Assembly (NCBI GenBank): GCA_950295325.1
Contig: OX485804.1
Location: forward strand, 63,144,533 to 63,208,532
DNA: 64,000 nt
From: Polytrichum commune
Lineage: Eukaryota; Streptophyta; Polytrichopsida; Polytrichales; Polytrichaceae
Reading direction: 5' to 3'
The notes under the pieces were generated by a model that was given only the letters and a program-made list of their open reading frames with translations, searched no databases and was not told the origin of the DNA. Positions 29,475-55,768 of this stretch are shown here, one piece after another. Both the position numbers and the translations under genes were made by a program. The stretch's first letter is position 1. Every line of letters begins with the position of its first letter.

Positions 29475-29505
29475 CACTAGAAGGAATGGGGGTCCTTTCT
29501 AACAT
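29475..29505 (+). repeat. left terminal inverted repeat of the CACTA element
   Basis: 31 bases identical to the reverse complement of 55,738-55,768; begins CACTAG; preceded by the target duplication TCT. Confidence 0.88.
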
Positions 29506-30028
29506 ACCCCTTTGACACGGAGGGCCCCCCGTGTGGGATATTTCCACACCAAGGTCATAAAAAAGGCGTGAGCAGTTTTTTCGCGCCAAACCTAAAAAAA
29601 TTAACTGCAAGTTTGTGCACCTGTCGAAGTCATGTCATCCTAGGAGACTGCGTGTAGGAGGGCCGACCCATAGTCCGAAATTTCTGCAAGCTGTTTGAGT
29701 GTGCCATTCAATGAGTACCTTTTATATAAACATACTCCTAAAAAACTAGTTCAATGGAGATGTGTGACCACTCTTAAATTGAAACAAAACCAACATACAA
29801 TTGTGGCGCAGGCATAGTCGGATGTATTGGCTCTCCTATATAGGCCGATATCATAGATACTTTCCATTCACAACTTGTGTCAATCTTCGTGCACGTCATT
29901 CTCCTGTCCGATAAGTAATTCTTTATTGTTTCCCCCTCCTATCGTGCGTCCTCTACGCTAGAGTTTTACTACCCTGCTTTTGTAATATTTGTTCTAACTT
30001 CTTCATCTCTTTTAGGTGTGAAACTTGG

Positions 30029-30487
30029 CTAGGACCTTTTCCCCTTCGTGTCCGACAGTGTATCTCCATTGTGTTCCATCCCTTCCTCCTTTCTTGTGCA
30101 CATCTTCCCGCAACAGATGACACACACGCTTCGTGTCCCTGTCAATGTAGAAAATTGCACATGCACACTCGGGTTGTTCTGTAATGTCACACATGGTTTT
30201 CCACACACCTTCCTTTTTACTGCCACCTCATCCTCCTCCCCCCTCCGTGTCAGCTCTTTGCCAACAACAATATTGTTTTCATTTGATGCATCCCTCCTCT
30301 CTTCCTCCATTACTGTGAATACGTCCCGGTCCCCGCTGGAATCCTCTTGGCCAAGACAATGCTCCACCCCCGTAGAGCTTATTTGCCTTCCACTTGCCTC
30401 CTTCTTTACTACAACACTCCATCCAGGCCTCGCATTGTCAGCCACAAAAACTTCTACAATTGCATTGCAGGGTTTAGTTATTTGCAT
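30029..30487 (-). CDS. hypothetical open frame in the CACTA left arm
   Basis: 152 codons from an ATG at 30,487. The frame continues open upstream to 30,583, where a possible acceptor (ttttaattgttcag) lies near 30,510. The product is hydrophilic and highly charged in its middle (VMEEERRDASNENN, RRGEEDEVAVKRK) with a Cys cluster near the end (CVICCGKMC). No family recognised. Its place 0.5 kb inside the CACTA left end makes a transposon-encoded accessory protein possible; it may also be a chance frame. Confidence 0.25.
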   Translation of the reverse strand: MQITKPCNAIVEVFVADNARPGWSVVVKKEASGRQISSTGVEHCLGQEDSSGDRDVFTVMEEERRDASNENNIVVGKELTRRGEEDEVAVKRKVCGKPCVTLQNNPSVHVQFSTLTGTRSVCVICCGKMCTRKEEGMEHNGDTLSDTKGKRS

Positions 30488-30587
30488 GGTGTAGATGCAT
30501 GTCTCTAGCTGAACAATTAAAAACACACGTGATGACAATGTTATGGTATTTGTTGTGAGCGTCAAAATTGCCCCCAACGGCAATTTG

Positions 30588-31540
30588 GCTCACAATTGAG
30601 GTGCTTTGGCAAAATCATTAAATTAGTAATAGGGAAATTTAGCGAAAACCCATTTAGACTAAGGTAGGTTAGATAGGGGTATTTTATCCTTGGGGTAATA
30701 CTCTTGGGCAAGTAGAAATTATAAACCGAAGGGATAAAATGGAAATGTCTTTTACCCAAATCGGAAGTGTAAAAGTAATGGACTAGTAAATAGGTAAGTT
30801 AAATTAGGAACAACCAATTCAAGCAAGCAAAAGTCAAGCGGCGGCAAAAAACAAGAGTAATTCCGGAAGCGGCAAAAAAAAAAAAGGAAGTGACTACTAC
30901 GAGCGTAAGGGATCTTGCCAACTAGGGCAAGGGGGCCATGTTGCCAACCAAAAATGAAGTTCAAACGGAAATGAAAAAACCTTTGTAAGGATTTGAACAA
31001 GTGGGGTGCGACGTGACATCCTTCTCCTTTATTCACTTCCGAGGGCTTGGTTGTCACCGTTCAAGGAATGGGACCCCTCGGTGAACGGAAGGGAATAGGG
31101 GCCTAACCCTTCATTTAAAGGGTGATAAAACCCCCTCTTCCCCTTTCAATCCTCTCTGCAAATTTCATTTTTGCACGGCGAAGCCCTCTAGAATTGTAGT
31201 TAAAAAGAGAAAATCATTTTCATTCATTCAATATAGGCATAAGTTAGAATTCTTATAGTTAGACCTCTTGAGAGAATGTATAGTGTTTTTTAACACACCC
31301 CTAAGTAGCTATGTTACTTTCAAGCAATAGTAGTGGACACAAAAATTACAATTTAGCCTTTAAATTTTGAATGAATGTAGCCCTTCATGTTAGCTTTCCG
31401 AAAAGACTAATATTATTAAAATCAGAGTTAGGAAACAAACGTTATGAGTGTTTGAATGAAGGTGTCTCAGCTGCCTCTTAAATTACAAGCGCTGACTTTG
31501 CAAGCGTGTAACTCCCAGGGAGTGCACTGTTGAAGTACTG
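30588..31540 (+). mobile_element. older LTR-like block (left part, interrupted)
   Basis: Non-coding, with the look of a long plant LTR: a pyrimidine-rich leader (ccccctcttcccctttcaatcc) near 31,130, and then a unit (31,386-31,540: gttagctttccgaaaag..tcagctgcctcttaaat..gcgctgactttgcaagc) that recurs twice after the solo LTR at 33,786-34,160. The solo LTR at 31,541 therefore split an older element. Ends of the older element not found. Confidence 0.45.
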
Positions 31541-33253
31541 TGTGAGGCCAAACCCACCACCCTTAAGCGTCCTAGTCCGGATGATGGGTTTATGAATCAC
31601 ATGTGTAGTATCAAATCTCAATGATATAATAAACATCCTTCATCTCAGTGAACTTTCTAGTTCTAAAGTTCATGATGTTTTATTAATACTTGTTTCTTGA
31701 ACAGATGAGGCATTAGCCTTCTCAAAGGTCCATCCCGCGGCTTTGGCCACGCATCCTCGTAAAGACATTCCCCTAGCACCCTTAATCTTTACTTTTTTTT
31801 CCTTGCCATTGCTAGGATCAACCACATTTTCCATTCTTGAACAAGTAACTTATTTTGACCAAGAAGATGCAAGTGTTTAAAAACACTGTTCTTGATGATC
31901 CACCCCAATGACATTTACTAGCAAGCCACACCTCACACTAATTAGCCTAATAAATCTAACACTTACATATGTGCTAGAATAATCTAAAATGCCTAACTTG
32001 ACCTATGCTTAGTTTGAGTGATAGTACTCAATTTGAGCTAAGCTTTGGTCACCCAAGCATGCTCCCCACTACCCACTACTTCTTGAGACCCAACCATCCT
32101 CGGCTGCTCCAGCAACTAGCTAGGTTCAGGCCCTCGGCTGCCCAACAACTAACCCAGTTCAGCCCTCGGCTGCTCCAGCAACTAGCCCAGTTCAGGCCCT
32201 TCGGTTACTCCAGCAACTAGCCCAATTCAGGCCCTTCGGCTGTTCCAGCAACTAGCCCAGTTCAGGCCCTTCGGTTACTCCAGCAACTAGCCCAGTTCAG
32301 CCCTCGGCTGCTCCAGCAACTAGCCCAGTTCAGGCCCTTCGGTTACTCCAGCAACTAGCCCAGTTCAGCCCTCGGCTGCTCCAGCAACTAGCCCAGTTCA
32401 GGCCCTTCGGTTACTCCAGCAACTAGCCCAGTTCAGCCCTCGGCTGCTCCAGCAACTAGCCCAGTTCAGGCCCTTCGGTTACTCCAGCAACTAGCCCAAT
32501 TCAGGCCCTTCGGCTGTTCCAGCAACTAGCCCAGTTCCAGAAGTGCTTAGACAGAAGTCTAATGAATTCTACTACCATTCTCACTCCTAGTAATTAACTT
32601 AACATTCCTCTAATCTATCAACTCATAATTAACCTATCCTCCTACTAATTCATCAAGTTAACAACTAATCACACGTGTTTTTCTAATCATTCTAAGGGTT
32701 CCTTCCACATGAGAGAGATTGAGAGTGAGAGCTTAACTAATTAACTTCACTAAAACTAATAGCCCACACACGTGGCTCAAGCTCTTAAGAGCTTGCTCCC
32801 TTGAGAGCGCTTGATGGAGAGAGAGAGAAAATGAGAGAAAAAACACCTTAAGTAGCAAAGAGGGAGAGAGGGAGAGAGGGAGAGAGAGGTGAGGATAGGG
32901 TGAGAGGATTCACACCTCTAATCACAATCCCTTAACCTTCTCCTCCAAAGTAGGGACTAATCCCCATCCACCAAGCTTCCTTCTTCCTAAACTAACAAGG
33001 TGGATCCAAAAGTGGGCATTTAACCCGCGGAGCTCACCTTGCTTCACCTTACCCCCTACTCACATTATCAAGGCATACTCTTATTGAAATCAAACCTTGA
33101 AATAATCACACAACACCACCTAATGCCTAAAGTTAAATCCACACCACTCTTCACTCTTTTTATGTTTTGTGAATAATCATAACACATTAAAGTCAAACTA
33201 AATTTGGTTTCGAAGAGTTAATCACCACATGTGGGCACTATTTTGGGCTCACA
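31541..33253 (+). mobile_element. solo LTR with 5-bp target duplication
   Basis: 1,713 bp starting TGTGAGGCC and ending GGGCTCACA. This is TG..CA with short inverted ends, flanked on both sides by the identical 5-mer TACTG (31,536-31,540 and 33,254-33,258). There is no coding sequence, primer-binding site or second LTR, so it is the product of LTR-LTR recombination. The element strand is arbitrary. Related termini occur at 51,800 and at 53,473/54,245. Confidence 0.85.
32099..32538 (+). repeat. 33/35-bp tandem repeat inside the solo LTR
   Basis: About 12.6 units of CCAGCAACTAGCCCAGTTCA followed by either GCCCTCGGCTGCT (33-bp unit) or GGCCCTTCGGTTACT / GGCCCTTCGGCTGTT (35-bp unit). In the middle the two types alternate, making a 68-bp higher-order unit repeated about three and a half times. 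Outer units are more diverged. Confidence 0.95.
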
Positions 33254-35278
33254 TACTGTATTTATACACGTGGGTGAACAAAAAGGGTATTATTTAAAAC
33301 AAGCATGCACAAAATATATGTACAAGAGACATATTGCTATTAAGCAAGAAGTAGATATACATGAGGCTATAGAAAAATATATGTGAAGTACACATTTACG
33401 CGTTTACGCGTTCAAGTCAGACCTGGACAAAGAATCATGTGTTTTTTCATCCACTAAGTAACGACTTTATAACTAAAAATCCATGATTTGATATTATACA
33501 TATAATAGGGCCATATTTTTGCATTTCCAAACATTTGTACACATGTTATATACAATTTCTGTATTTGTTTTTGGACCCTTGTATACGTATGGAAATGTAT
33601 TTTGAAGCAATGAGATTTATAAGTATATTGCTTGATTTTAGCAAAAATAAAATGTATACAGGGGTATTTTAATAAGGGGCATGCACGCACGTGATGCTTG
33701 GTTTTAATGAATAGTGCACTCCCTGAGGTATAACTAAAAGATAATTTATTCAATTTCTTTGGTATTTAAGTTTGTTATAGGCCTTGTTGTTAGCTTTCTA
33801 AAAAGTATAAGTTTGTCACAATCAAATTTAAATAGTGAGAGTTATGAATATTTGAATGAGGTATCCTAGCTGCCTCTTAAAATATAAGAGCTCACTTTGT
33901 AAGCTAATACCCGCAAGAGGAATCATGCAGTTGTTTTGATATTTAGAGAATTTTAGATCTGATTTTAAGGTTTCTAGAAAGTCTAAGATTGCAAAAATCT
34001 AAGTTGATAAGAAAAAGTTATAGATTTTTCAACAAAGGTATCCCAGCCGCCTCTTGAATTCTGAGAGCTGACTTTGTAAGCTCATATCTTTAAGAAGATA
34101 CATGAAGTTTCATTTATAATTGGATAACTTATAGTTCTTGTTGTTAGCTTTCCAGATTACCATGAATTGTTCCAATTGAAAGTTGTGAGCAAAAGTTATG
34201 GCCGTTTAAGCAAAGGGGTGTTGCCTTACGAGAAGAGGTTCGTCCATCTAAGGTTGGCGGGTACGAGTTGGCGTTGTGGGCGGCTGAGCGTTGGAATAGG
34301 GGTTCCGCATCAACCATCGCCAAGCCAAGATGGGAGTCCATCGGTAAGCTTTTTAATCCTACAACCTTCAATCGGCACAGGGCCTTGTAGAGTTCGGGTT
34401 AGGGCGTGCACCAAACATGTAGGTGATGATACCATAAATTATGAACTTAGTAGCATAGGCTTTGTTCAATCAACCATAAACTAAGAATGAAGGTTGAAAA
34501 GATGAGACTTAATTAAGGTCCCTCCGTTTAGATAATTAAATATATAAGAAGTAAGGAATTAGAGGTGGCCCAAGGTAAAATGCAAGGTTATTTCATTCAT
34601 TAGGGTTAGGTTGCCTTGATCCCAAGGCTGGTGCGTCTGCGCATAGAATAGGATAAATTAGGCATTAGGTTAGGGAAGTTGATAATTATCTTAGGCACTT
34701 AAAATCTAGGCACAACCTATCGGAAGGATACGACACGATTATCAAATCCCTCCACCAAAACAAAACACCCGTTAAATATCATAACACCCGGGTTCGGCTT
34801 AGGCACCTGCCAAGGCAGGTCACCCTCACCGAAGGGCTTGTGCGGTATCGTTAGGCTCCCTCGGGGACGAAGCTAGTTTGCGTGCCTAGAATGGTGAGCA
34901 GTGAGCCTAGATTGGTGAATGGAGAGCATAGAGTAGAAAAAAGAATAAAGTAATCAACATTTATTGGGAGTTTACCAAAAATAGAAATAAAATATTCCCC
35001 CCAAATTTAGTAATTATTTGGACCTATTACCATTGAATAAGGGTGCTCCTATGACCGTGGGAATGAATTTTTTCATGCACTTTTGACCACTATTACTGTA
35101 GGATGGCAGCAAAATGTGAACAAAAATGTACATACATTTGAAATTTTCAATGTCAATGATGATTTAATGAGTAGTAAAAAATGTACAACAACAACGTCGT
35201 GGTGGCCCTTTTAGTCTCACCACTTTTCCATTCAATCAAAAAAATTGTACAATGTAACCTTCGGGTTCAATTGCATCT
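33254..35278 (+). mobile_element. older LTR-like block (right part) and spacer
   Basis: 33,786-34,160 holds two copies of the 185-bp unit also seen at 31,386-31,540 (words: tagctttctaaaaag, agctgcctcttaaaa, gagctcactttgtaagc). From 34,200 to 35,278 no gene is seen; cacctgccaaggcaggtcacc near 34,805 is an inverted-repeat word. The block ends before the MULE pseudogene. Confidence 0.45.
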
Positions 35279-38200
35279 CTAAGTTGCTGGTTGCTTTAGT
35301 AGCACCATCTGAATAACACGCTTAATTTCGTTGAAACTGAAACTAGGAGCGTGCATAAAAACATCTATCTGACTATCCAATCCACAAACTACGTGAAATA
35401 TGTAGTACAAATGCTTACAATTTGTCCATTGCCCACGCTTTCCCAAGGCTTTGCCCGACATATCTTTGAAGAAGGGGCATAAACAACTGGGAAACTGGCC
35501 AATCGTAAGTAAGTATTGCGAAATTTTGAGACCATTCCGGGACTCAAAGGTGATGATGCAACCCAAGGCAGGATTTGGTACCATAGAAACCTTCAGAATC
35601 TGCCCAATGACAGTAAGAGCAGATGCGTAGGAATTGGCGTGCTTCGTTGAAGGTGCGTTTGGATTCCGCCTGACGTTCTTCCCAAATTTGCGCTTCAATG
35701 GAAAGTCGTTAGAGAACTCCGGGGTAGGGTACTCTGACAGGTCCACCAATGATCCTTCTTTTCTAAACAGCTTCCTCGGAGAGAGCTCCAGACGTGGTGC
35801 CAATCAAAAACCAGCGTTCTCCAAGTCTAGTATCTCCTTCTGTGTGAGATTGGTGCCAATCTTAACAGGCCAAATTTCTGGAACTGCAGGGTTGGAAACC
35901 ACCCACTTACAACGAGTACCCTTCACGCACCTCTCAATGTCGTCGTTGCAGAAGAAAAACTGCATGTGCTCTTGCTTATTCTTCCTATAGTTGTGCATGA
36001 TGTCGTTGTAAGTTGGTGCAGCTGTATTCTTTCCATCCTGTACAATTCGTGCCACACATTTCTTCTTGGTGATGGCCTGTTGAGCGAAGCAAGCCTTTGC
36101 TGACATCTTTGGAAGTCGCGCGATGTGCCATTCATGTTCATTGCATGTTGTTTCTTGTACAGCCTTCACATGCTCCACGGCTGGATTTGTGGGAGGTGTC
36201 TCTAGTTGAACTGGATTGTCATGCAGGTTTTCAGTTGCTTCTTATTGTGCGTCACCCTGTGAAGTGAGATCATAAAATCTTGCACCTCTTGCTCGCGTTT
36301 GTACCCGAGGGCGATAGATGCTAATCTTGTTAGGTCTATGAGAGTCGAACTCCGACCCAGGAGGAAGATCTGGTTTGCGCTTAAGGGAGAGGAATACTTC
36401 CTTACCTTGAAGATGAGGCTCCTGAGTGCAAAAACCTTCAGCTCCGGGCATGTTTCGGAACACTTGATGAAGCGATTTTGGGTTGCCAGAACGTTGGGCG
36501 GTTCGTTGAGCGATTCGCAACAGCAATTCTTCTTTTCCAGGTCCAGTACCCGGTCTCTCACCATTCAAATACTGGTAGTAGGCAACCATTTGCATGAAAG
36601 CACGTACATAATCATCGACAGTTGCCACATACAAGTCATTACCTCGTTTACCGCTCTGTTGAAGCCACTTATTGTGTACAGTCTCCGCTAAATTGCATGA
36701 AGGCATTTCAGCAAGCTTAGCCTCGGAAAGAGCCTGTGATGTCAAATGAATGGTAATAGAATTTAGAATGAGGTTACAACTTCACAGGAAACTGAAAGCA
36801 AAAAGGCCCGGAGCAAAGTGTGAACCTACCAAATCCATAAAACCACCCCATTGGCGATAGCGGAAGTGCCAGAAAGCAAGCCATAGGTCAAGACGAACGA
36901 CCCTTCATCAGTCGTTGCCCCGGAGGAAAGCCACCATGACCTGATAGCAAGGTACCGCTCTTCAGCCTCTTCTAACGACTTGGCATTCTTGTATTGCATG
37001 CACAATTGACAATGTTGTGGTTGCAGGTCCGCCCGAATGTCAACCTTTGTATGTTTCTCCAATGACTGGGTCCAATGGAACAAACAAGTACGTTCTTGGT
37101 CCTCCATAGGAATTGACGCATCACTGCTACCATACACAATACGAATTGCATTCCAATTTGCTTGCGCACTGTCTGCCATGAAGCCCTTGAATTGTACGTT
37201 AGAAACGTTGTGTCTAGCCACAACAACATTCAAGTTATTCCAAAAAATGATTTGAGCGGCAACATCTTCCGACTGCATATCACACACTGCAATGGTCATT
37301 ACCCGACAATAGGTAGCATCATAAACATGGCATGCCATGGAAGTCCAGTCCTTCACACGCTTGACATGGTCGAACATGATCCATGCATTCTGTAAATCTC
37401 CACCCGGCTGCATTTTTGTCACGAGATCAACTCCACTTCCTGGCCCGACTTCAGACATCTTGAAAACAAAGACCTTGTCGGACTCGGACCCTTGGCCAGG
37501 GAATTTATTCTCTTGGACAAATGCCCAGTAGCTAGACCCTCTAAGTTTGGTGATGCTGTCCATGACTCCAAAACGTCGCAAGTACCGAGACGTTGTGACT
37601 TGATTCCGAATACTTGGAGAAGATAGGTGTTTGAACTTATCAAACACTGGTATGAGCTCATCAAGAGTAAGTTCCTCCTGCGTTGATCCATCCGCAAAAA
37701 GAAGCAACTCACCAAGGAATTCCTTGCTTGCTTCAAGGACAATGGCAGAATTAGTTGCTGTTGGAGTTTTCTCTACTTGTTCACAAATTAGGCTCTTTAT
37801 TTTCTCAACAACATCCCTGTATTTGCCAATTTTCACAGGATGACAATGGGTTCCAAGGTGCACACATGCATGAGTCATATTTCCATGGCCAAGAACAGAA
37901 TAAATCTTAGCCAAGCACACATCCAAGCATGATGGAGAAACCTTGCAGATTTTACACACGACAGTTGAGCCCTTTGGAGGGTTACATCCAACTCCAAAGG
38001 TGAACAAGGAGATTCCATCCCATTCGGTTTCGTTAGCTTGGGAGGACCGGTGCACACGAGATAAATAATCACAAGTTGTGTTGGTGCATTGCAAATGACC
38101 TAAGCACGAAGACATTCTAAATGTAAAACCCATGTCATTCTTGATATTGGAGGTGATGGTGCGAGTCCAAGCATGGCCATCATGGCGTTTGTCCATGTCA

Positions 38201-38954
38201 TAAAGGAGCTTTGCTTGTGACTGTGATGCATACTTCCTTGGCGGGGGTAACTCAAACATCACGTCGCGATCAAACCTAGGGGGAATGAATTCCACTCTCT
38301 CAATTTTTATTTTGGTAAAGTCTACCTTAGACAAGATAGACTTCGATCCTTTCCTTGTAGCTAATTTTTTGAGACAATCAACAATGCTCACATAGTCATC
38401 AATTCGTGGCGGAATCGGAGGCCTAGAAGTACTTGGACGACTGCCTTGTGATGAATTTGTGTCATGCGATGCGTGACATGTTACAGTAGGATTGGGGATT
38501 GAATATTGGAAGACGGCAATCTAGTGGGGAGCTCATCTTCATAATCATCACTCAAAAGATGGATGGTATGTTCGCAAGGCTCAATCTTAACCTTTTGGAG
38601 CATGGGTGTTTGTAGGGTGCATGTAGATGACACCTTAGGGGTGAGGATCTCAGTGGATGCACCTTGAAGAGGATCTTTCAACCCATACACTCGGTACGTC
38701 CCTGACTTCAGAATCCAACACTGACCTTCATCATTCATAGAGGACTCCTGACCTATAGTGTAAAGAAGTTCTCCTGAATCAACATCAAATATATCCTCAT
38801 CAACATGCATAGATCCTTCTAGAAATTGAAAACGAAGATGCAAATGAAGAGCACTGACTGTGCACTTTTCATCAGCTCCTACTTGAAAAGAAATAGGAAC
38901 TCTTTGTCCATCAACACGAATTATCACCATAGGAGAATTATGAGAATCGACCAT
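35279..38954 (-). pseudogene. MULE-type transposase with C-terminal SWIM finger (degraded)
   Basis: Minus strand, about 1,190 codons from ATG 38,954 to a stop at 35,279, with one 96-bp GT-AG intron (36,734-36,829). Visible in order: an N-terminal domain (starts MVDSHNSPMVIIRVDG); a Cys-rich block (SCLGHLQC..C..CKICK) near 37,940-38,110; a DDE-like core with YDATY near 37,320 and FMADSAQANW near 37,173; CLFHWTQSLEKH near 37,080; then a helical region. A SWIM finger CLC-x(n)-CKH follows at about 35,410-35,485. MULE transposases cut and paste DNA using this kind of core, and SWIM is usual at their C-terminus. Lesions: a one-base shift in the GGGG run at 38,494-38,497, a one-base shift at about 36,901-36,903, and in-frame stops at 36,242-36,244 (TAA) and 35,804-35,806 (TGA). 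Terminal inverted repeats of the element were not found. Confidence 0.75.
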
Positions 38955-39927
38955 TGCAATGGAGAAATGGAAGACACGGACAACATGGAAGTTGTGAGTA
39001 GATTTTAAGTCGAAGAGTTCTGCAGGTATATTTTGATGCAAGCGGTTATGCAAACATCACTGCATGAAGACATAGAAAACTAGAATTAATAAAGAGGGTG
39101 ATTCAAAGGCGCTCAAATTAGAAATAAACGCCGAGAGTCATGTATTGATGAAAATGACATATTTTAGAGAAGTTGCTGGCGCGTGTCAGATAAATGGGTT
39201 GCTTGGAACTCTGTAAGTCCAATAATAAAGGAGTTGGCGTTATGAAATAATTATACAATAGAATTGTGATTGAAGTCCAATCTATAGCATCAACATATGG
39301 TGGTTCAATTATACAAATTTGCCATTGTTAGATAATACCTGTTTGAAGAAAGTCCTTTCATCGGGGAACCACAATGAACCAAATGCAGATGTTAGTTTGA
39401 ATTACTTCTATTTATGATGGATTTCAAATTTACAAGGACAACAAACTGGCGGCGCTTGTAAGTGTAATAGGAACCCACTATTCTAGTGACGGCTAGAGTT
39501 AGATTGCTAGGATAGTTTTTCTATTTATGAAAGATATGACAATCTAAATAAAACAACCAATCTTGAAAAGTATAGACATTCAATTGAAGTATTCAAGTAG
39601 TCATAATTTATTTCATACTTGAAATAGAGTGTTGAATGAGCGTGAAGGAGGAGGTAGGAAATATAAAACTTACAGGGTTGTACCCACCAGCTGGCCATCG
39701 AAAGCATGAAAATGTAGAAAATGCCACTCAAGTGACTATTGAGATTCAATGTGTGTGATGATTAGCATTAATAACAAAGATTGATATATGGAGAAAGAGT
39801 CCGTAATTGAGTATTTCAAATTCAATTGCATGTTATTGAGAAACGTTTGTTTTAAGGGCATTGCCACATTCCTCGACTCAATAGAAGGCAGTATAGTGGA
39901 GATGTAAATGATGTTCTATTGAGCCAA
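38955..39927. other. divergent intergenic region
   Basis: 973 bp between the MULE pseudogene (minus) and the small plus-strand gene. AT-rich with no gene; it would hold both promoters if the two were a transposon gene pair. Confidence 0.5.
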
Positions 39928-40652
39928 ATGCAGAACGGAGATAGGAAGAAGAAGCGGAGGGGTGGGTTTCGTTATTCATCTAAAAAACAACTAGCCAAAT
40001 CTAGAATGGCAAGGCGACAACTTCAAAGTTCGGGCATAGACCTTACTAGTACAATTAAAACACTTTTGTATGACAGTGCTTTGCTGGAAGAAGTTGTTGT
40101 TGAGACTCATCCATTGGAAGGTGAGATATCAGGATTTGCGGTATCGCGAGACAATCAACCATTCATGTCTGAGTGCGAGCTCGAAGAAGAGTTGTCAAGT
40201 GATAAACAAATCAAAATAAGTATCTATTGGTTGAAGAATATCTTTGATGTCCTACAAAATAATGTGGTGTGTTGCGGATCATTCTTTAAGTTTTAAGCAT
40301 ATCAAAGTATAATATAAAGGTGGGTTATCATTGATATGTCCAATATCAAGTCATTGAGGTGTAGGATTTTGTTACTCGGAGATGACAATACTTAGATCAA
40401 TGTTTCAAAATGCGGCATTAGTGTCAGAGGATGCGCAAGTAGGGGAGGCAAGTGGAGAGCAGTTTCAAGAGACCGATCAAGACATGAATAATCATGACCA
40501 CGAACTATACCAGAACAAGCAAGACGATGAAGATCTGGACGATTGTGCACAAAACACACCCTCAAAGGCTTCAGATGCAGTAAGACACTCTATCATAGCA
40601 CTTTCATCTGTTTTTTTTTATCTTTCTATAGGCCTCAAAGTTCCTCTTCTAA
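39928..40652 (+). CDS. small spliced gene, basic/acidic protein of unknown function
   Basis: Three exons: 39,928-40,219, 40,365-40,579 and 40,632-40,652. Both introns are GT-AG (acceptors gaggtgtag and tttctatag) and phases fit; 528 nt give 175 residues. ATG 39,928 is the first in frame after an upstream stop. The N-terminus is strongly basic (DRKKKRRGG, KKQLAKSRMARRQ), like a nuclear localisation or DNA-binding segment. The C-terminal half is acidic and polar (ETDQDMNNHDHE, KQDDEDLDDC). No family recognised. It is head to head with the MULE pseudogene, so it could be a second, mudrB-like accessory gene of that element; this rests on position only. Confidence 0.5.
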
Positions 40653-43982: not shown

Positions 43983-44495
43983 ATGGGCGATTCCTTTGAG
44001 GTCATTGCTTGTGAAACGGTTCTACAGGATTTGCTTTAGCGGATTGCGGATGGGCCTGACCCCTGGGATCATATAGGTAGCAATACAACACAGTGTTGGA
44101 CTCCTCCATCGGTAATCACGTTTGAAGACGTCGAGAATGCTCGTGCTGTGTCGAAGCTTTGGAAACGTGAGATTGACAGCAGTCCTGAATACGCATGCCT
44201 CCGGCTAGCGAAGTGGGATTACATTTCGTACTCGGGTCACCATTGGACTCCAAAGGACGAATATGAAGCTTACCGATTCAACTTGAACTGGAACGTCTTT
44301 AGGACTTCTTGGTCACTAGCAAATTCAATTAACAATAACAGGTTAGAAACAACGTCCCTTGGCGAACTTAGTTGCCCTGAGTTAGATCAGTTGAGGTCAT
44401 TGCTAAGGGACAATGGAAACCAGTCTTTGGATGTGCAGCCAGGAGAGAAAATTTCTCCAAGACCTGGTATCTGGGTCTCTCCCAAGAATAGATGA
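43983..44495 (+). pseudogene. ORF D, unknown protein, one in-frame amber
   Basis: From ATG 43,983 (MGDSFEVIACETVLQDLL) the frame is open for 171 codons including the stop, except for one TAG at 44,037-44,039. The part after the stop reads as genuine protein: GPDPWDHIG, TFEDVENARAVSKLWK, YISYSGHHWTPKDEYEAYRF, then a Gly/Pro-containing tail ending PGIWVSPKNR. Trp- and Tyr-rich. No family recognised. It sits on the opposite strand between the two methyltransferase-like genes. Either a decayed gene or one with a read-through or sequencing-error stop. Confidence 0.4.
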
Positions 44496-45037
44496 GATGG
44501 GTTTAGGGATGAGAAAGGCTATTGACCTTTAGAAAAAGTTATTATAGTTTTGTATATTTTTTGAACATATAATTGTTATCTATTGCAATGATATGTCCAC
44601 ATTATTGTTTTTGGTTTCATTGCTATTATTATCTAAAAGAACCAACTTTTTGACTAATGTGGTTTTCACTTTTTTAGGCTCCAGTAGTCTGTAAATATTT
44701 TATCAGGAATTTCAGAATCACTTTGGCACATGATATGTATTTCCTTCATGAGGCCATGAACATTAAATTAAATAGTTAAAAAAAATAAAAATATGACACA
44801 TGTTTATGATCTTGTATAAAGAACAAATAAGAATTGACAGCAAAAAAGTCCCACAACTGGACATACATGAATATCAAATGGAAAAATTATAAAAAAAACC
44901 CGATGGTCGCGTACAAAAATGCAAGATGTGTGCGAAAGACACCTTAGAGGAAAATGTAATTAAATCCAGTCAAATCAAATCAAATCAAATGAAAACAACA
45001 AAAGACCGAAACGTCCTTCCAAAACTCATGATATGCT
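44496..45037. other. AT-rich spacer
   Basis: No gene seen; AT-rich with a short AAATC repeat (aatcaaatcaaatcaaatg) near 44,973-44,991. Confidence 0.5.
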
Positions 45038-47443
45038 CTAATTGCTACTTCCACTATCTGATCTTGAGGACTCTGAATCTCCTTCTACAGCCTCTGTATC
45101 CATAAATACAAGGGCCTTAGGATCACAAGTAGTAGCTCGACTAGGAACATATCTAACGGCACCGGATTGAAGCGCTTGTGCTAAGTCCTCAGCATACTCT
45201 GGAAGAATATAAGGCTGTATCGGACTAGAGTTCACACGCCACGATGGAATGGGTATGGGTCTTGGCATAGGTTGCGGTGTTGATGCAAGTACTCTGCAAT
45301 AGAAACCGGATAGTGGTTAGAATGAGTACGTGGAGATGCAAACAAAAGCAAAGCTAAGATAAATCGACTAGAAGTAAAAAATGTAAAGTAAGACTTACTT
45401 ACAAGCCCATTTATTGCGTCTTTGTTTTTTGGGGCGCGATTCATCAGCAGATACAGGTCTGGGATGTTTAGGAGGGCCCATGACAAGTCTTGAAGCGATA
45501 TATGGACGGAAAATGGCGTTGAAGATGGGTTCGTCATCCTCAAACGCCACAACATGACGACCAATCTCTTGGCAAGCCTTAATGGTAGCCCCTGAATTCA
45601 AAGCATCGCAAAGATGTGAGACTCTGTTGAGAATATGAGAGGAATGGAAACTCAAAACTAATTAATGAATGGTTACAAGTTTCTGCCTTCCAGTCGAGGA
45701 CTATGTCGCCGGGCTTGGTCAGCTGCTCAATGAGGGCCTGCATGAACAAAGGGGCTTTCTCCCTTGGTCCTCTCCATGGGATGTTTCCATTCATGAGCTG
45801 AGTCTTCGCAGTGATGAGGTTGAACAGGGCATCACTCTTGGTTATATTAACGTCGTCATGTATCACCTCGGATTTCTTCGTCTGGAATGAGAAATTAGAT
45901 ATCACGTCGCCACCACGAATAAAGACGTGAATCCAGAACCGAATAGACTCCAGTCAACCAAAACATGTGAGAGTAAATAAAATAAAAAATTATCACTAAA
46001 CATAAACAAAGAATGATTACGGTGTAAATACCTTGGAGTCGGGGTCCGTAGGAGAAGCCAACTCGAGGTCATTGATGCCCCACCAGTCCTTGTGCATCAC
46101 AAAGTCGTAAGTCTCAGCCTGATCGAAAATGTCCGCAGTGAGCTTTCGATCATTGTTGTGGATGAGGTCGAGAGCACCATCGTTTTGCAAGTAATGACTT
46201 GCAAATTCGAAGATGGACACCACATATTCGGGATCCCGGGAGTTCCAAGGTGGAACGACTGATGGAGGATTGGATATGGAAGGGACGAGTAGATTCTCAG
46301 AGATGTCGGCAATGATCAAGTCAATCCCAAAGTGCTTCTCATTTTCACATCGTTCTGGAACTTGGGTTTGGCGGCCTTCTCCCATCTTGAAGAAACCAGG
46401 AAGGAAAGTTAGACTTTATAATATCTAAAAAAAACCTGATGCATCCAAAACGAGTCGAAGCAACGGATTGTACCTTGCGAATGAAATCTAGAATCTGAAC
46501 CCATCTTGGATCGCCACCGTTGTCAGACAACTTCGTATGTGAAGTCATCAATGTCTCCACAGATATGCTGGAGACAAAAACATGGGCGGAATGTGGAATT
46601 CCACTGGAAGAGGTGCTCGTGGGAAATAGTTTTGCCTTCCTCTGCTCAATGAGACCTCTCGTCATCTCCAATGCACTGACCGAGGAAGGCACGGTCGTAG
46701 AAGAGGGAGCAGTCTCGAGAACGACTTTAGATTGAGAAGCAAGGAATGCCTGCGACAAGGGAGCGGATGACTCCGTCTGCCCTAGCTCTGATGCTTGTGA
46801 TTCCGAACCCAAGGAGACAATGTCCGTCCCTCGACGCAAACGACGCCCTCTCTTGGGCTTCGGTGGTGGTGCAGAGGATTGATCCTGGTGCCCTTCAGTA
46901 ACTCGCGTGGTATCTTCTTCCACCTCCACTCCGCCATCATGTAAGGTCTTCACCTCCGCCTCTAAATCAAAGACAAAACCACGAACACAGTCGAAATACC
47001 AACATCCTGCATGCAAGTGTGGTTGTTTGTACATTTTTAACTGTTGGGCAGTATAGATACACTGGTCTGAACCTTTATAAATCCATGCAGCAAAGTACTT
47101 TGGGAGTGCTTGAACATCGATGGCACCTTTAGGAACTAGCTCACTCTTGAAGTACCTAAAAAATGACAAATACAATATGTTATAGGATTCATTAACGATA
47201 TAAAGAGAAATGAACTTGATTGATATAGCAAGGGATGTTGAATTTATATTCATACCGGTATGTAACCCGCCTGACAACCTCTGTTGTTCCCGGGAATTTG
47301 GTGAAATTGGATTTCTTATCGAAAACCTTCTCAGTCCGGGAACCTAGGAATGTAGGGAATGCCTTCTCCCATAATAGAATACGCCAACAGTCCACATATG
47401 CGTCCGGTCGCAGAACATCTCTTTGGGGTAGGCCCGATGTCAT
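45038..47443 (-). CDS. beta-class DNA methyltransferase-like protein A
   Basis: Six minus-strand exons: 47,443-47,256, 47,155-46,474, 46,385-46,032, 45,881-45,677, 45,591-45,399 and 45,293-45,038. All introns are GT-AG, phases fit, 1,878 nt, 625 residues with no internal stop. Residues 1-290 form an unrecognised N-terminal domain (RPDAYVDCWRILLWEKAFPT, YRYFKSELVPKG, CWYFDCVRG) with a basic stretch KPKRGRRLRRG near 162-172 that may be a nuclear signal, then a Ser/Thr-rich linker. Residues 291-540 follow the beta-class methyltransferase order: DLIIADISEN (312-321, motif IV position), DGAL, WRGPREKA (444-451, motif X), PGDIVLDWKAETW (465-477, motif I position) and HVVAFEDD. The catalytic DPPY is absent and the AGTG loop reads AETW, so it is probably catalytically dead. 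The C-terminus LPEYAEDLA is shared with gene B. The ATG used lies inside the 126-bp satellite, so the true 5' end may be lost. Confidence 0.65.
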
Positions 47444-47705
47444 TTTGCTTTGAACTTTTGTATCTCCCCCTTGACGTTAGGTTGCACCCACTAGATGTGG
47501 GAGAAGGTTCAATTAAACCCCACAATGAGGCTTCGGTGCAGAACCCTCTATGAGGCGGACCCGATACCATCATCTTTCGAACTTTCGTCTTTCCACCTTG
47601 ACGTTAGGTTGTACCCCCAATTGCACGAAAGGGCTCAAATGGGCCCCCTAAATGAGGCTTCGGCACCGAACCCTTATTTGGGTGGGCCCGTTGCCATCTT
47701 GTTTC
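47426..47705 (+). repeat. 126-bp satellite, about 2.2 units (right of cassette)
   Basis: Units start at 47,431 (GGCCCGATGTCATTTTG), 47,557 (GGACCCGATACCATC) and 47,684 (GGGCCCGTTGCCATC), giving a period of 126-127 bp. Core words CCTTGACGTTAGGTTG and GAGGCTTCGG..GAACCC are shared with 40,775-40,935. The first unit overlaps the 5' end of gene A. Confidence 0.92.
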
Positions 47706-47989
47706 CTATAGGCCATGGTATATTCATTTTATATGAAAAAATATTTCAAAATTGCTCATTTATTTGTGCTCACTGCTCACCGCTTACCGCTCTAGGCTTA
47801 CATAATAGCAATCCCCGCTCCCTCCGAGGGGGGTGCCCAAAAACACCACAATTCCCAATTGTATATTTTCCACGTAATATCATAGCTGCGTAGCTATAGG
47901 CGGCCTTGTGACATGGAATCAGTTATGAAGTGGTTTTGATGGTTAGAATACGTGGAGGCCATGAAATTTTGGATTTTAGGAATAGATTG

Positions 47990-49020
47990 TCGGCGGGGAA
48001 GGTGTGTTGAATATCTCCAACTCACGGAAACTATGGACAGAGGGCATAATATGCTGTGATGGAACACATTGGCGAGGGGAGGCAAGATTTACACTTCGAG
48101 CAATGCTAATCTGGTGTGTACACGACTTACCAATGTACGCCATGTTGGTTGGCACAACAAACAAAGGGTATTGTGCGTGTCCCGTGTGCAGGCCGAATAC
48201 TCCATCGCGATATTAGGAGTTCCTGTCAAAAGTTGTGTACGGCGGGAGGCTCCGGAGGTGGTTGCCTCCAAACCACCAATTTCATTTAGAAATAAGTGTG
48301 CTTCTAACGGACGAGGTGGAAGGTGCACCCCCAATAGATGCGGCAAGCCTCATCCGGTAGGCATTCATGCATGCAGAGTATGCACGGTTTAGAGACGGAT
48401 TGGAGTGGGAGGTGACTCAATGCTCAGAATCCTGGAATATTTTAGAGTTTGTACTGAGGTTTTTGTTTGGCGAAAAAAATACTGCGGAGTGCAATCCGCA
48501 CACCCACAGGATATGAGAATGCGTTGGGCAAATATTTAAAGAAATCACAGTGTATTGGTCTCAAGTCCCACAATTACCATTGTTTAGTGCAACAAATAAT
48601 ATCGACGGGTATCAAAACATTGCTGCAACATTTACAAAGAACTGCCTTGATGAGGTTAAGGAAGAATTCACCAGAATTTATGCTAGAGTTGTGGACAAGA
48701 CCGAACTAGGAACGCTACGAGTGTAAGTTGTAAAGATAATTTGTATTTTGAAAGCATGTTTCCCGCCTGCCTTCTTTGCGATTATGCAGCACATCTTCAT
48801 CCATTTGGTGGATGAGTTGGAGATGTACAGCCCGGTGGGTGGCTGTGGATGTATCCATGCGAGAGGTACATGAGAACTTTGAAATCTTATGTGAGAAGTA
48901 AGGCGCATCCAGAAGCATCAATGACCAATGGATATGCGGCAGAGGGATGCTCGGTTCTTACACGGAGTACCTAGACTTGCAGACCCACACCAAACAACAT
49001 GTTTGGTAAACATTGAAAGA
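47990..49020 (+). pseudogene. TNP2-type CACTA transposase, C-terminal remnant
   Basis: The plus strand reads, with several frame changes, as the family named transposase-21/TNP2: LRAMLIWCVHDLPMYAMLVG, TTNKGYCACPVC, FRDGLEWEVTQCSESWNIL, GLKSHNYHCLVQQII, LQRTALMRL and, near 48,840-48,900, WMYPCERYMRTLKSYVRSKA read across a frameshift. These are the conserved blocks of the transposase that cuts CACTA ends. Only about 340 codons remain of a protein usually 700-1,000 long; the 5' half is missing, where gene A and the satellite now lie. Not functional as it stands. Confidence 0.8.
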
Positions 49021-51799
49021 GCAATAGATAAGGGGATCGGTCGTGGCAAAGCGGAATGGGAGGCGGGGACGGGTATCCAACGAGTTGTTCATAAAAAATC
49101 ATTTCAAAGAAGTTTCAAACCTAGAGTATTACCCATTTTCATAGATTTTATGGGGAATAACTTTGTACCTCCTTCAGCGCAAATCTTATGCTTTGAAAAA
49201 CTATATATTTTTAATTTGAAGTTCAAAAATCATGTTTATTGTTGCATCTTATAAGAGGGTGGATGGCTAATATTTAAAGATTAATTATTGGGGCCATTAT
49301 TTGCTCTTATTCTTATTATTTATTGTTTGTAAAAGCAATATCAATGTAGGGTCATTAGTAAGTACGCCTCAATTTTGTAGAATACTTTGTCGTATATTAG
49401 AAAGTTATGTTTCATGGATTCCAAGATGTTGGATAAAATTGGCTTTAACTATACAACTATATTTGAATAATGTGTTGGTTGCTCATGAATGCAAATAATA
49501 GCGGACACAATAAGACACAAAAAATACATATGCTTCGAATAGACGAAATTAGATTACGTTGTAGTGATGTAGGCAACTACTAGTTAGAACTTGGGCAATT
49601 TTATATGTTATTATTATTTTTAAATAAAGATCAATATGATGATCTAAGTTAGTTGTTTAAGTTGAGAACCGGTCTTAAGTTCAAGACCGGGTGATTTGGT
49701 AGATGGATGTAGTAGGTAGGATTTGGGAAGAATAGGATTTACCAGCGGGTCGTTACCTAACCACTTAGAGGTTCTAGAAGGCTTAACCTTAAAGTTTCCT
49801 GTTGGTTAAGGGTTCTAGAAGCTTTTTATCCAAATTTTCTTATTGGCTTACCGGATAAGTCTTTAACCCAAATATTTCATATTTCTAGGGGAATAAAGGT
49901 TCTGAAAGTCTTTAATCCAAAGGTCTCATATTAGTTAGCCGCTTAAGGGTTCTAGAAGTCCTTACTCCAAAGGTATCATATTCGCCGAAATGGCAAGGTG
50001 GAAGAATATTTAAGGGGTGTTAGAAGGGTGTTGAGGGAGGAAATTAGCATTTGGAGTTGGTACTTGTGTAGATTTGGAGGAACTTTGAGTATTTTGAGAT
50101 ATATAAGTGTTTAGTAAGCATTACTATACTTGAGGGTGTAGGAGTGAGATTTTTAGAATGAATAGGTTACACTAAGTGCACTATTTGTATTGTTTTATTG
50201 GTTATTAAGTGAGCATAACTTTTGAATGAAGGATTTTGTAAATTGTGAATAATTGTCGTGTTCGATTGATATAAAAATTTGAGGAAATGTTTTTTGTAAG
50301 ATATAAGTGTTGAGGTAAAAATTTGAAAGCTTCAGTCATTTGCAAGAAAAAGTTGTAAGGAGTTGAAGTGAAGGGTGTCTAGAAGCAAAGGCCATTAAGA
50401 GGACCAGATTAGAAAATATGGATCTTTTTGAATTTTGTAGCTATGGCTACAAAATTTTGATACTACCTTCTGATTTTACATATCTATTTCTGTGTAAAAA
50501 TTTGAGGTTGATTGGACTTAAAGGTTAGAAATTATGAGAGTTTTAGTAACCGGATGTTATAATACAACATTTATGCTAAGAATGTAGAGTTAATAAATTA
50601 TGTATGACTTTTTTGTTTAAGCTTTGTTTGTGCTAAATTTTAATGTGTGATCTTTTAGTAAGGTACTCAATAAATGGATCAAATTTCACTTGAAAGGAAT
50701 GAGTTAATTGAGAGTTATACTATTCTGAAGTATGGTAGGACAACATTAAGAAGAATTTACAACAAGGGTGTAGGAAAAGGGAAAGGTACTAAAATGATTT
50801 TAAACACTACCATAAAAAGAAGTCCCGTGGTTACCGTATAATGCACAATCTTTTTGACGATGTATTGAGTATTAAAAACACAATACTAAAGGTAAAATTT
50901 GGACAAATGAGCCAAGATATGGAAGATAGAGAGGAGCTCTTAGAACCATTGCTCCAGTACTCCATCCTTTTACACGAAGGTGAGAAGTGCACAGTCTAGT
51001 GCAAAAGAACTTGACAAGGAATTTATATTGAAGCTATGTGAATGGTACATCGTAGTGCTTTATGCAGGAAAAAGTACCCGGAAGGCATGCAAGAATCACC
51101 TCCAACCGTGCCTTCCAATTGACACTTGCCACAATACCATATGCGAGAGCCTGACCTTTGTTGTGCACTATGCCGAAGACCGAGGCTTCACATTCTCGTC
51201 TTCTACAGCATACCACAACTAGGGAATTACCCTCTATACTTGATAATGACAAAGACAATTACAAAAAACATTCCTTAATCAATTAATTCATTTAGTTTGT
51301 AGAATTGCATACCTGAAGCAATTCGCTCTCCCCCTGCAAGTCAACACTTCCCCTCGACCGTGATTTAACCTTGACGCAACTACCTAACAATTGTCTAACC
51401 AAACATATTCTAACTCTAAAAGCATTGACTCCCCAAGACCACAACTTGGAAACTCACCCCGAGGTGATTGTCAAAGTTGACTCTTCCTAAAATTAATTAT
51501 CCCTCTCGGATTTAATGAACTAATAGTCGTCTTATTAATGTAATATCCTTATGTCATTCCAAGAAGATTTAGGACATCATCTCAAGCTGCTCTCCTTCCT
51601 CAAAGACAAAATGCATAAATGAAATTGCGATTCATTCCAAGGAAAAGAAATGAAATTCAACTACCCCAGCCAATAACAAAAAATCAAAACCCACTTGAAG
51701 TACTCACCTCGCACCAAGTGTTCCTTCCTCACCCTCAAGTTTGTGCCTCCAAGCCTCAATCTCCTAATCCCGTTTCATTCCTAGTGGACGCACCATTTA
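49021..51799. mobile_element. LTR-like non-coding block with degenerate 50-bp repeats
   Basis: 49,757-49,985 holds about five diverged units of GGTTCTAGAAG..CTTAA/TTTATCCAAA..TCTCATATT. A TATA-like word (gatatataagtg) follows near 50,097, then sequence typical of long plant LTRs (gagcataacttttgaatgaa). No reverse transcriptase, integrase or complete gene seen. Frames at 50,980-51,222 (plus) and 51,034-51,258 (minus) overlap and are unassigned. Boundaries not determined. Confidence 0.35.
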
Positions 51800-54245
51800 T
51801 ATGAGCCCTAAACCCCCACCCTTATGCGTCCTAGTCCGGGACTAGGGTCCACAGAAGTCGAGCAACCTCTCCTTGCCACTAAAGCTTAGCACCATCATCC
51901 CACCAGTATAATGTAGCCTGCAGAATTTTATTAAAAAGAACATGAAAACAAATGCTTAGAACCACTCCTTCAAACCGCCATTTAAATAGAAGGTATGTAT
52001 CACCACCTACATGTTGCAAAACCCCCTACAACCCTTCCCAACTTAAGATTAATCCACACATTAGTCTCACCCACACCTAATCCTACCCCCTTCTCCTAAT
52101 ACTAAGTGCCCAGTAAGTAGCCAATCAATGCCTCATGAGCCAAAGTGAACCACCACAGTTGCTGGATCTCGATCCTTGCTGGAATTTTGTTTTGCCCGTC
52201 CCTGCTCCTCGCTGCCCGTCATTCCCCGTCACCTGCCACCTGGAACATAGTATGGCCATTGGGGTCCCAGCTCCCTCTTCCCGTGCTAGTTTCCGTCCCT
52301 GCCTGTAAACCTCCCTTCCCTTCCTCCACTGATATGGCTCCTGAGTGCGGCCAACATCCCTTGAATCCCGACGAATCTCCCACATTTACCACCCACACCT
52401 CAACCTTGAATGGGATTCTGCTGGCCTTCCCAGGCCATGATCCCTGGTCCCTGGGAGAGAACCCAACATAAAACACTAGCTTCCCAACAACCGCATGGGT
52501 TACTCACATTCTTTGAATTTCACACTTGGCTGCATTTGCCCACAACTCCACACTTTCCACTCACCGAGATGCGGTGGCCCCACAGCCACAACCTCGAGAG
52601 CACCGGAATGCAGCCCGAGATGGAATCCGATTCAAATCCGTTATGTTGGCAGCGCGCAGTGAATTTCTAGCACGTTCTTCAAGATCTTTCCTTTTAGTTC
52701 GCATAAGCCACTCCTGCTTGGTGCGGTGCGCCAACTAGCACTGTGCCTCTTCACTACTCACGATCCTTACCAGCCCCTGACCTTCGAATGTGGGTCATGA
52801 AATTGTCGGCGCTCCAGCGGCTACCAGTTGCTGCTCAAACGCCGATCCTCAAAATCTAGATGGCCTCGCCCTTCTTCGATTCCCCCTTCCTTGAATTTGT
52901 GCCTAGATCCCAGTAGGTTCAGCCCAAAATGACAATCAACCGGGCAGCACCCAGGCCCCCCAACCTTGCAACCCAGCCTCCTAGTGGTTGCTGTAGCAAC
53001 CTCGTTGCAATCAAAATCTTTCTCCCTAAACCCAATGTGGTTTGGTCCTCTCTGGATCTGCTCTCCCATGCCGGGAGTTGATAGATAGCGATAGAAATCG
53101 AGCACACCCCCTGTTCCTTCTGGGGACCAGACTAAACCCGGAAATCCCGCTCTGATCCAACCTTCTTAGGTCCCCCCCCCCCCACCCTTAAGCCAACAAT
53201 GATCTAGCCTTAACCAAACAATTTACTTGCCTCATGCCGCTTGAGCCCATCATAAATCACCCTATAACTAAACTACTTAACTTGTTTTCTTTTATTTTAA
53301 ATTCTAATGACTCAATCCAATTGCCTATCTCAACTAAAGCTAAACCAATTAAAATCATATCTAAACTCTAATGCCTCACACTTGTTGTCACACTGCCACT
53401 TCAAGTTAACACAAACAATAGGGTCTTTCGTAATATTAGTGTTAAGTTGGTATGTGGGCATATTGGGCTCACACTTTCCCAGCTCTCTTCTGACTTATCT
53501 AGCTGCTCGTGTTGTCTCCCTCCTCATTGCACCTCCGCCTCGCCTACTCCTCAGTCTTCCCAATGCTACAGATCTATGTTCATTTTTTCTTTTCTCATTT
53601 TTGTGTTCGACCTACTCAATGCACATACAAAAGTTCGAGGTGGAGGCAACGCTTCCGCCTCCTTCCTCTTCTCTCTCTCTCTCCACATGCATTCCTCCTT
53701 AATGAGGCAGGGCTTCGCCTCCTCTTCTCCCTCTCTATCTCTTCTACCCCCTCCACATGCATAATGAGCCCTCTACCTCCTACCTCCCGAGACCCCTCCA
53801 AGCCTCTCCTTTTTTTCTCGCGTTGCCCGGCATCTTTTGGGCCGCCCGGAAAGAAAAACGGGTTTAGGCCTCTTTCCTTGGCTTTCCCCTTCCAAAGCTC
53901 CACTTCCCCACTCTCTTAGTTGTGTTCACCTCCTTGTCTTTTAGTTTTTCACCTCTGAAGGTGGAGGTTGATTTTATCACTCTACTTCCCGCCCTACCCT
54001 ATTTATTTTATGTTTACACCCATGTCAGACCATCCCTAGGCTCACACCTAACTAACTTGGTCCACAATTAATTCTTCTCGGCCTCTTGCCCTAAACAACT
54101 CCTAACTCACCACTTAACTCAATTCAACCTAGACTTCAACGCCTCACTCCTTTTTATCTTTTTGACTACTCAAGTTAACACAAATTCTAAGGTTTTAATC
54201 ATTTTTATGTTTAAGTTGACATGTGGGCATAATATTGGGCTCACA
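51800..54245 (+). mobile_element. LTR-family relatives of the solo LTR, compound
   Basis: The start (tatgagccctaaacccccacccttatgcgtcctagtccggg) parallels the solo LTR start at 31,541 (tgtgaggccaaacccaccacccttaagcgtcctagtccgg). Two end-like segments follow: 53,407-53,473 and 54,172-54,245, both running from caagttaacacaaa to ATTGGGCTCACA. The interior is different and very pyrimidine-rich (Ser/Pro-coding by chance). No target duplication could be matched, so this is a damaged or recombined compound of two related elements. Confidence 0.5.
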
Positions 54246-54249
54246 GGTG

Positions 54250-54940
54250 GAGTTGATCGTGCACAAATGATGTTAGACGAATTGGCAGGCCATGGGAATT
54301 TGAATCTTAATGTATCGCCCGAGAAGCTTGACGGAACCGACGCCATGCACGATTGGTGGAGGAATACATCACCGGCTGGAAGGGGGGCGGGAAGCCGAGG
54401 TGGTGGTCGAGGATGAGGACGAGGCACGGGGTGTGTGAAACGGCCTCCAATGCTTCATCCACAGTATAGATCCACGGCAAGTATTTTAACCATGAGACCC
54501 TTCCATTTTCCCGATGCTTATTATTATGTTTTCATGCATGCGAGTGGACGGGCTTGGAGGGCAGTTGTTTCAGTGTGTAAAACAAGAACAATGGCGACAA
54601 TGGTCGCAGGATCTTGTCCGAACCAAAGCGATGTGTTGGGTGTTGCATCCTGGCAATGGAGTAAGACCGGTGGTGGAGGGAATTGCCGGCAACACGCCAC
54701 GTCCGAGGAGCACAGAAGAGGGAATTGGTTGAAGCTTGTTGATGGAACTATGCGAGGATGGGTAGCAGTTGGTGAAGGTCACCAAGATGCATAAGAAGAA
54801 CACCGAGTTAATGTTTCCGGAGGAGAATGCAGGCTCCAAGTACCTCGACGACTACGTCTCCCCCCCCCCCCTGGCGCACGCCAACACATTTGTCACGTGG
54901 TCCACACGGTATTTGGCAGAGAAGGAGGAGGAGGCTTGAT
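54250..54940 (+). pseudogene. decayed coding remnant, unknown protein
   Basis: Patches in two plus frames look like real protein: LDELAGHGNLNLNVSPEKLD (54,270-54,330), then after a frame change QWRQWSQDLVRT and HPGNGVRPVVEGIAGNTPRP, and after two stops KVTKMHKKNTELMFPEENAG and KYLDDYVSPP, interrupted by a poly-C run at 54,860. No family recognised. Its place near the CACTA right end suggests a transposon gene, but another source is possible. Confidence 0.35.
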
Positions 54941-55737
54941 TATCAACACAAGGGCGCCAAGCATGCGTTTTTTTGGGTGTAGAGGTAGAGGGAGGGTGCG
55001 GCGATACGAAGCCTTGCAGGACAACGATTTTTCCCAAATATCATAATTGTTAATTGAGGTGATGAATGTAGATGCGTCACTTTTAGTGCAATGCCAACCT
55101 TCGTGTGAAGGGAACCGTTTTCCACGCACACACCCACAACCGCAAACAATGTTGCAAGAGATTGTAATTTTTTATCTATGAATACATTGTTTCCACTATG
55201 CAGGAACACAAAATTCAGTTGATGGTCCTGAATGGTCCGATACAATCAGAATAATAATCGCATACGGTATTATTGTTTAATTGCCAAAAACATTAATTTT
55301 GGCCTTAAGAAGAGGCCAATACGTAAACGGACAAATACTTCATAGTACTGTTGCACCTAAAATACGAACGAGAAGTGTAGAAAACACAAGACATGGAAGC
55401 AAACAACCAAAATACTCAATACGGTCACCCATCCCAATACGGAAGGTGTGGCTACCAATGTGGGCGACTCCGTATACCTATGTGCTCCCGCAAACGTGCA
55501 CGCTCATAAATGCCTCATGTACGCATTAATTACTTGTAATTAATGTTTGAGGTCAAGGTTGTTTGAAAAATACATGACACACTTTCCACACAGTAAAGGT
55601 AAAAAAGGTAGACACTGAAGTTTCACCAAAAATAGGATTGGTCCAGGATGACACTGGATCCACGCTGGCGTGGATCACCGCCCGAGACCCTGACACATGT
55701 GGTGGTCGCAAAACAATGTCATTTATGTGTCATTTTG
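54941..55737. other. CACTA right subterminal region
   Basis: No gene. Contains TGACAC at 55,575, 55,649 and 55,691, its inverse at 55,727, and the 20-nt palindrome GATCCACGCTGGCGTGGATC at 55,657-55,676. This fits the subterminal repeat region of a CACTA element. Confidence 0.5.
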
Positions 55738-55768
55738 ATGTTAGAAAGGACCCCCATTCCTTCTAGTG
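55738..55768 (-). repeat. right terminal inverted repeat of the CACTA element
   Basis: 31 bases, exact reverse complement of 29,475-29,505, ending CTAGTG and followed by the target duplication TCT. Confidence 0.88.

Follow-up and report, generated by a model that had tools for sequence, protein, structure and literature searches.

What makes a transposon measure more than 26 kb from end to end: material of its own, captured genes, or other elements lodged inside it? The question is posed by a stretch of the Polytrichum commune genome (407.8 Mb searched) that lies within the 64,000-nucleotide segment analysed here (the window, on contig C2) and is bounded by inverted CACTA ends. An initial annotation had taken it for an unusually large and young CACTA element carrying many foreign genes. 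The answer proposed here retains the element and revises its contents: this is very probably a CACTA (En/Spm) insertion in a dispersed repeat, with a decayed TNP2 gene and a core swollen to 26.3 kb by nested elements. The layers are laid out in Table 1.

Table 1. The inserted unit, its flanks and its nested layers (window positions; TSD, target-site duplication)
Feature	Position	Strand	Remarks
Dispersed host repeat, target of insertion, left part	29315..29474	+	resumes at 55772
TCT target duplication, left copy	29472..29474	.	TCT also in 17/20 empty paralogues
Left terminal inverted repeat, CACTA end	29475..29505	+	31/31 bp, perfect
CACTA left terminal module	29475..30552	+	over 29475-30315, 70-83% to stretches of the C2:44028704 element; stops at start of T
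Dispersed repeat T, ends TTGTGAGC...CACCACAA, later insertions inside	30553..~47851	+	shared left edge in other copies
Apparent solo LTR, TG...CA, 1713 bp, within T	31541..33253	+	TSD TACTG at 31536-31540 and 33254-33258
DNA transposon S, nested within T, imperfect inverted ends starting GGGGA	34863..47816	-	8-bp TSD
Broken frames, S protein family	35279..39056	-	77 matches scored across the genome, the window's own copy among them, from 2138 candidates
Young insert B within S, 6.5 kb	40931..47420	-	ends abruptly at 47420; 96.7% to C1:37737824
TNP2 transposase remnant	48013..49087	+	tblastn E down to 1.3e-23, queries TNP2 frames of the same genome
Dispersed repeat D	49556..50858	.	at least 35 other places, some partial (40 of 1551 candidates scored)
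Probable LTR-retrotransposon fragment	51091..54245	+	LTR-like start near 51801; ends ...GGGCTCACA at 54245
CACTA right terminal module	54246..55768	+	91% C6:14488904; 88-91% C6:10069656; 75-81% C4:21142524
Right terminal inverted repeat	55738..55768	-	perfect inverted match to left one
TCT target duplication, right copy	55769..55771	.	equals left flank

The ends and the empty target

The 31-bp end, CACTAGAAGGAATGGGGGTCCTTTCTAACAT, recurs base for base as an exact inverted copy at the other extremity, identity ending past base 31, and the unit spans 26,294 bp (29475-55768); TCT is read on both flanks. In these particulars the initial annotation was accurate. At up to 3 mismatches the 20-bp end finds two matches in the window (shuffle mean, 0.01). 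CACTA...TAGTG termini, short terminal inverted repeats and a 3-bp TSD are the hallmarks of CACTA/En-Spm elements, and the superfamily assignment made at the outset is strengthened by the family at large, in which equal trinucleotides flank 20 of 24 facing pairs of ends (10,000 partner shuffles: mean 1.34, maximum 7). (A technical note: the 24 pairs were chosen, non-exhaustively, from facing ends. L018, which has a second possible partner at C5:43892418, is among the four pairs that have no TSD, the others being L010, L051 and C3:1200035; L047, at C2:15676906, was left out of the pairs on account of its damaged partner end.) Subterminal repeats are typical of CACTA elements; a search for them among exact 8-mers in this one yielded none repeated more than shuffles reach. 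Per 300 bp, GACAC has five occurrences at the right end, one at the left and 0.3 inside.

That these two ends bound one insertion is established by empty paralogous sites. With the joined flanks as query (300 + 300 bp around a single TCT; 40 of 2938 candidates scored), 48 of the 53 other rows listed, the two window halves excluded, continue past the join for 20 bp or more. Of these other places the 20 with the best scores were fetched: all of them cross the junction, and all are ungapped within 10 bp of it, in a ranking by the joined query that favours spanning copies. The match extends 54-76 bp beyond the join in nine of these paralogues and 20-24 bp in eleven, and TCT stands at the site in 17, the remaining three having TCC, TCC and GCT. 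Since all 20 cross the junction, the target was one copy of a repeat dispersed in the genome, to which everything between 29475 and 55768 is foreign: the stretch is one inserted CACTA unit, as had been claimed. The empty site with a single TCT that had been proposed as proof is supplied by paralogues in one genome, not by alleles of related accessions.

Could two unrelated solo CACTA ends merely face each other here by chance? Partnerless ends do exist (9 of the 26 exact copies discussed below), and the left and right modules of the element are shared with different relatives. Set against this are the equal TCT flanks and a target repeat that reads through the junction in every one of the 20 paralogues fetched; the empty paralogues rule chance pairing out as a working explanation, and such probability as it retains is minute.

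The family of ends

Genome-wide, the 20-bp end has 26 exact copies (reversed-pattern control, 0), 78 copies at up to 2 mismatches (control, 2) and 96 with a looser pattern (control, 7). Sixteen of the exact ends belong to TSD-matched pairs, one (L047) has the damaged partner, and for nine no partner was found. An abundance of solo ends had been named in advance as an argument against the unit: such ends are real, but the majority are paired and flanked by TSDs. The 20 TSD pairs span 1.16 to 29.4 kb. The window element is second in length, and because two paired-end relatives with TSDs, 20.3 and 29.4 kb long, reside in the same genome, its length alone is unexceptional there.

Identity of the two ends had also been read as a token of youth. 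That reading fails: the window's 31 bp recurs at C1:47164845, C7:37920445, C6:14488904 and C6:12357902, and since it is common to other copies, including one (C6:14488904) that differs from the window by K2P 0.080 in the DNA just inside the end, identical ends are no sign of a recent arrival.

The 29.4-kb paired-end element has contents worth recording separately. A frame in its segment L036 (184-963) matches NIF-like phosphatases (PF03031, E 4.4e-13) and may be a host gene that was captured; its segment L035 (C5:47.09-47.10 Mb) holds retrotransposon frames in Gypsy domain order, one matching C5 cytosine methylases (PF00145, E 1.8e-11) and, weakly, aspartyl proteases, the other with a PHD-finger match slightly below cut-off.

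What remains of the CACTA element

A TNP2 remnant had been noticed inside the element, and tblastn bears this out at the position given in Table 1. The remnant is broken in all three forward frames (8, 16 and 13 stops) and is 68-70% identical in DNA to the TNP2 of the 20.3-kb relative, E1. Two frames from this stretch were scanned against Pfam and matched nothing, and PF02992, with at least 150 matches genome-wide (150 of 643 candidates scored), has none in the window among those listed.

Subtracting T with its contents, D and the probable LTR fragment leaves 29475-30552, 47852-49555, 50859-51090 and 54246-55768, a CACTA remainder of about 4.5 kb, or about 6.9 kb at most if 51841-54245, the least certain part of the fragment, is counted as CACTA. 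The left-module relative at C2:44028704 is a 2.15-kb element and belongs to the four pairs lacking a TSD. Three right-module relatives run on leftwards beyond 54246 into sequence not present in the window; the element has accordingly lost some of its CACTA interior, and the core is a remainder rather than the original size. On these assignments the other repeats and transposons make up some 74-83% of the element's length.

The nested layers

Copy counts in what follows are lower bounds, because the genome searches score the best candidates alone (40 each for T, D, the solo LTR, B and the joined flanks).

Repeat T has a shared left edge: with 40 of 143 candidates scored, each of the 39 other copies listed begins at a position corresponding to 30543-30558 of the window. 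None of these 39 exceeds 85% identity, no clear TSD was seen at the T edges, and 33259-33729 is a part of the T span that carries no assignment. T is unevenly distributed: 24 of the 39 listed copies are on C4 (59 of 408 Mb), 23 of them past 41 Mb, an excess that may reflect a young, non-recombining or heterochromatic region. The apparent solo LTR within T has near full-length copies elsewhere and many partial ones among the best 40 scored. In the probable LTR fragment farther right, the segment 51091-51840 has 4 other copies among the matches listed; for 51841-54245 the designation as LTR-element sequence is likewise only probable and is based on the end sequences.

S, spanning 13 kb, is flanked by an 8-bp TSD, GCTCCCTC, at 34855-34862 and 47817-47824. 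L056, a C4 copy of T, bridges the S site with no S in it (90.7% over 389 bp, 29 bp of this to the right of the join). A scan of L056 and of C5:33.10-33.12 Mb for CACTA ends (up to 3 mismatches) gave one poor 3-mismatch match in each, taken as chance. Longer frames of the S protein family survive elsewhere (890 aa in L002, 497 aa in L023). By eye the family has a SWIM-like motif; together with the 8-bp TSD, read in one copy, this could make S a MULE-like or Zisupton-like candidate; the family matches no Pfam model up to E 1. A 564-aa S frame found a single match in a PDB sequence search (E 0.8), and its AlphaFold model, computed without an alignment, has a mean pLDDT of 33.9.

B lies within S. 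The paralogue L028 is without it: just 6 bp separate the equivalents of 40929 and 47419 there. At the abrupt end of B, three other copies extend beyond 47420 with sequence missing from the window; no TSD was found for B in the window, nor one of 8-10 bp around the copy in L024. The two parts of B differ from other copies to different degrees (K2P 0.013-0.018 for 40931-43641, 0.036-0.037 for 43638-47420), and the first part is found alone at many other places: judged by these comparisons, B may be a composite. One frame in B looked by eye like N4/N6 methyltransferases, a likeness that found no support from Pfam and NCBIfam models and was dropped.

Target duplications show the nesting of the solo LTR and of S, and paralogues without them show that of S and B.

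Is the element, then, a large CACTA transposon filled with captured host genes (transduplication)? CACTA gene capture is documented (PMC8978399), and frames of foreign origin do lie inside this element. The foreign stretches, however, are mostly multi-copy repeats with shared edges, and E 0.01 in Pfam is reached by none of the 20 element frames scanned (from 36 frames of at least 100 aa), the best score being DUF5352 at E 0.08, far below its cut-off; NCBIfam gave just two weak matches, far below cut-off, for five nested frames. A giant gene-capturing CACTA element was rejected on the ground that the interior consists mostly of repeats that recur elsewhere and have their own edges, and we consider it very improbable. 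What the initial annotation took for many foreign genes is in the main other repeats or transposons, two of them (the apparent solo LTR and S) with their own TSDs. Because repeats and mobile elements lodged inside account for most of the 26 kb, the element is an ordinary nested transposon, not a giant carrier of genes.

Order of events

If nesting accounts for the length, how would the layers have been assembled? Cut-and-paste is the established mechanism of transposition for the CACTA superfamily. A CACTA element inserted, presumably in this way, into a copy of the dispersed repeat, duplicating TCT; its TNP2 gene decayed; and other elements came to be inside (T, the apparent solo LTR in T, S in T, B in S, D and the probable LTR fragment), stretching the core to its present 26.3 kb. 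That the nests arrived after the CACTA element had landed at this site we infer. As it stands, the element can probably no longer move without transposase provided in trans by a relative.

Relative ages were gauged from the private branch of the window copy, the smallest over relative pairs, which gives upper bounds on the time since insertion: 0.008 for B (mean over pairs, 0.009), 0.024 for the solo LTR (bootstrap 0.017-0.034; mean 0.053), 0.048 for the CACTA right module (0.035-0.056; mean 0.053), 0.071 for T (0.054-0.085; mean 0.102) and 0.083 for D (0.064-0.101; mean 0.086). S can be set against distant subfamilies (0.235), which is uninformative as an age; its module 39797-40929 stands at 0.077 from L028. 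These upper-bound divergences yield a rough relative order of insertion for B, the solo LTR and the CACTA element.

T and D have larger values than the CACTA right module. Though all are upper bounds, this is a poor fit to simple later nesting, and either of the two may already have lain inside when the CACTA element last moved. At its fullest this becomes a true composite, in which the CACTA ends moved as a unit of at least 20 kb with T, D and perhaps S already aboard; further points in its favour are the TSD-flanked pairs of ends that span 20.3 and 29.4 kb. But the excess of T and D does not refute later nesting, because their nearest relatives may be lost; no second CACTA copy with the same T was seen among the 39 T copies listed, although cut-and-paste need not leave one; and B, all branch values being upper bounds, postdates the divergence of the CACTA copies. 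A composite is, on balance, unlikely. If it were true, this CACTA family would be a mover of nested transposon blocks, and the 20.3- and 29.4-kb relatives might be likewise. The insertion is real and its size mostly that of its lodgers: end-to-end length is not transposon size, and the controls that tell the two apart come from the same genome.

Comparison with known elements

Large CACTA elements are not new. Sorghum Candystripe1 is a 23-kb element. The soybean element Tgmt*, 20.5 kb long with a 3-bp duplication, had likewise placed a CACTA element of 20 kb on record (PMC2613891). Tgmt* and the window element are alike in CACTA termini, 3-bp TSD, TNP2-type transposase and large size, and differ in the terminal inverted repeat, which is an imperfect 13 bp in Tgmt* and a perfect 31 bp here; unlike Tgmt* as described in that source, the window element has a broken TNP2, no subterminal repeats detected among exact 8-mers and a length due mainly to nested elements (PMC2613891). 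The warning given in PMC8978399, that nested elements can pass for a new element, names a risk that applies equally to the window element. What we have is a degraded, heavily nested CACTA element: of an ordinary kind, though well resolved.

The closest comparisons are within the same genome. E1 (C5:41087627-41107953) has a very similar end (2 mismatches in 20) and a TSD, TTC; unlike the window element, it retains long open frames for TNP2 (PF02992, E 7.3e-61) and DUF4218 (PF13960, E 1.5e-31). At the other extreme are nine short non-autonomous derivatives of 1.5 kb (L038-L046), whose ends are the same as those of the window element or nearly so and which have 3-bp TSDs in nine cases out of nine. 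At a mean K2P of 0.0105 among themselves they look like the product of a recent burst, and it is a CACTA family with such a recent-looking burst that the window element has brought to light.
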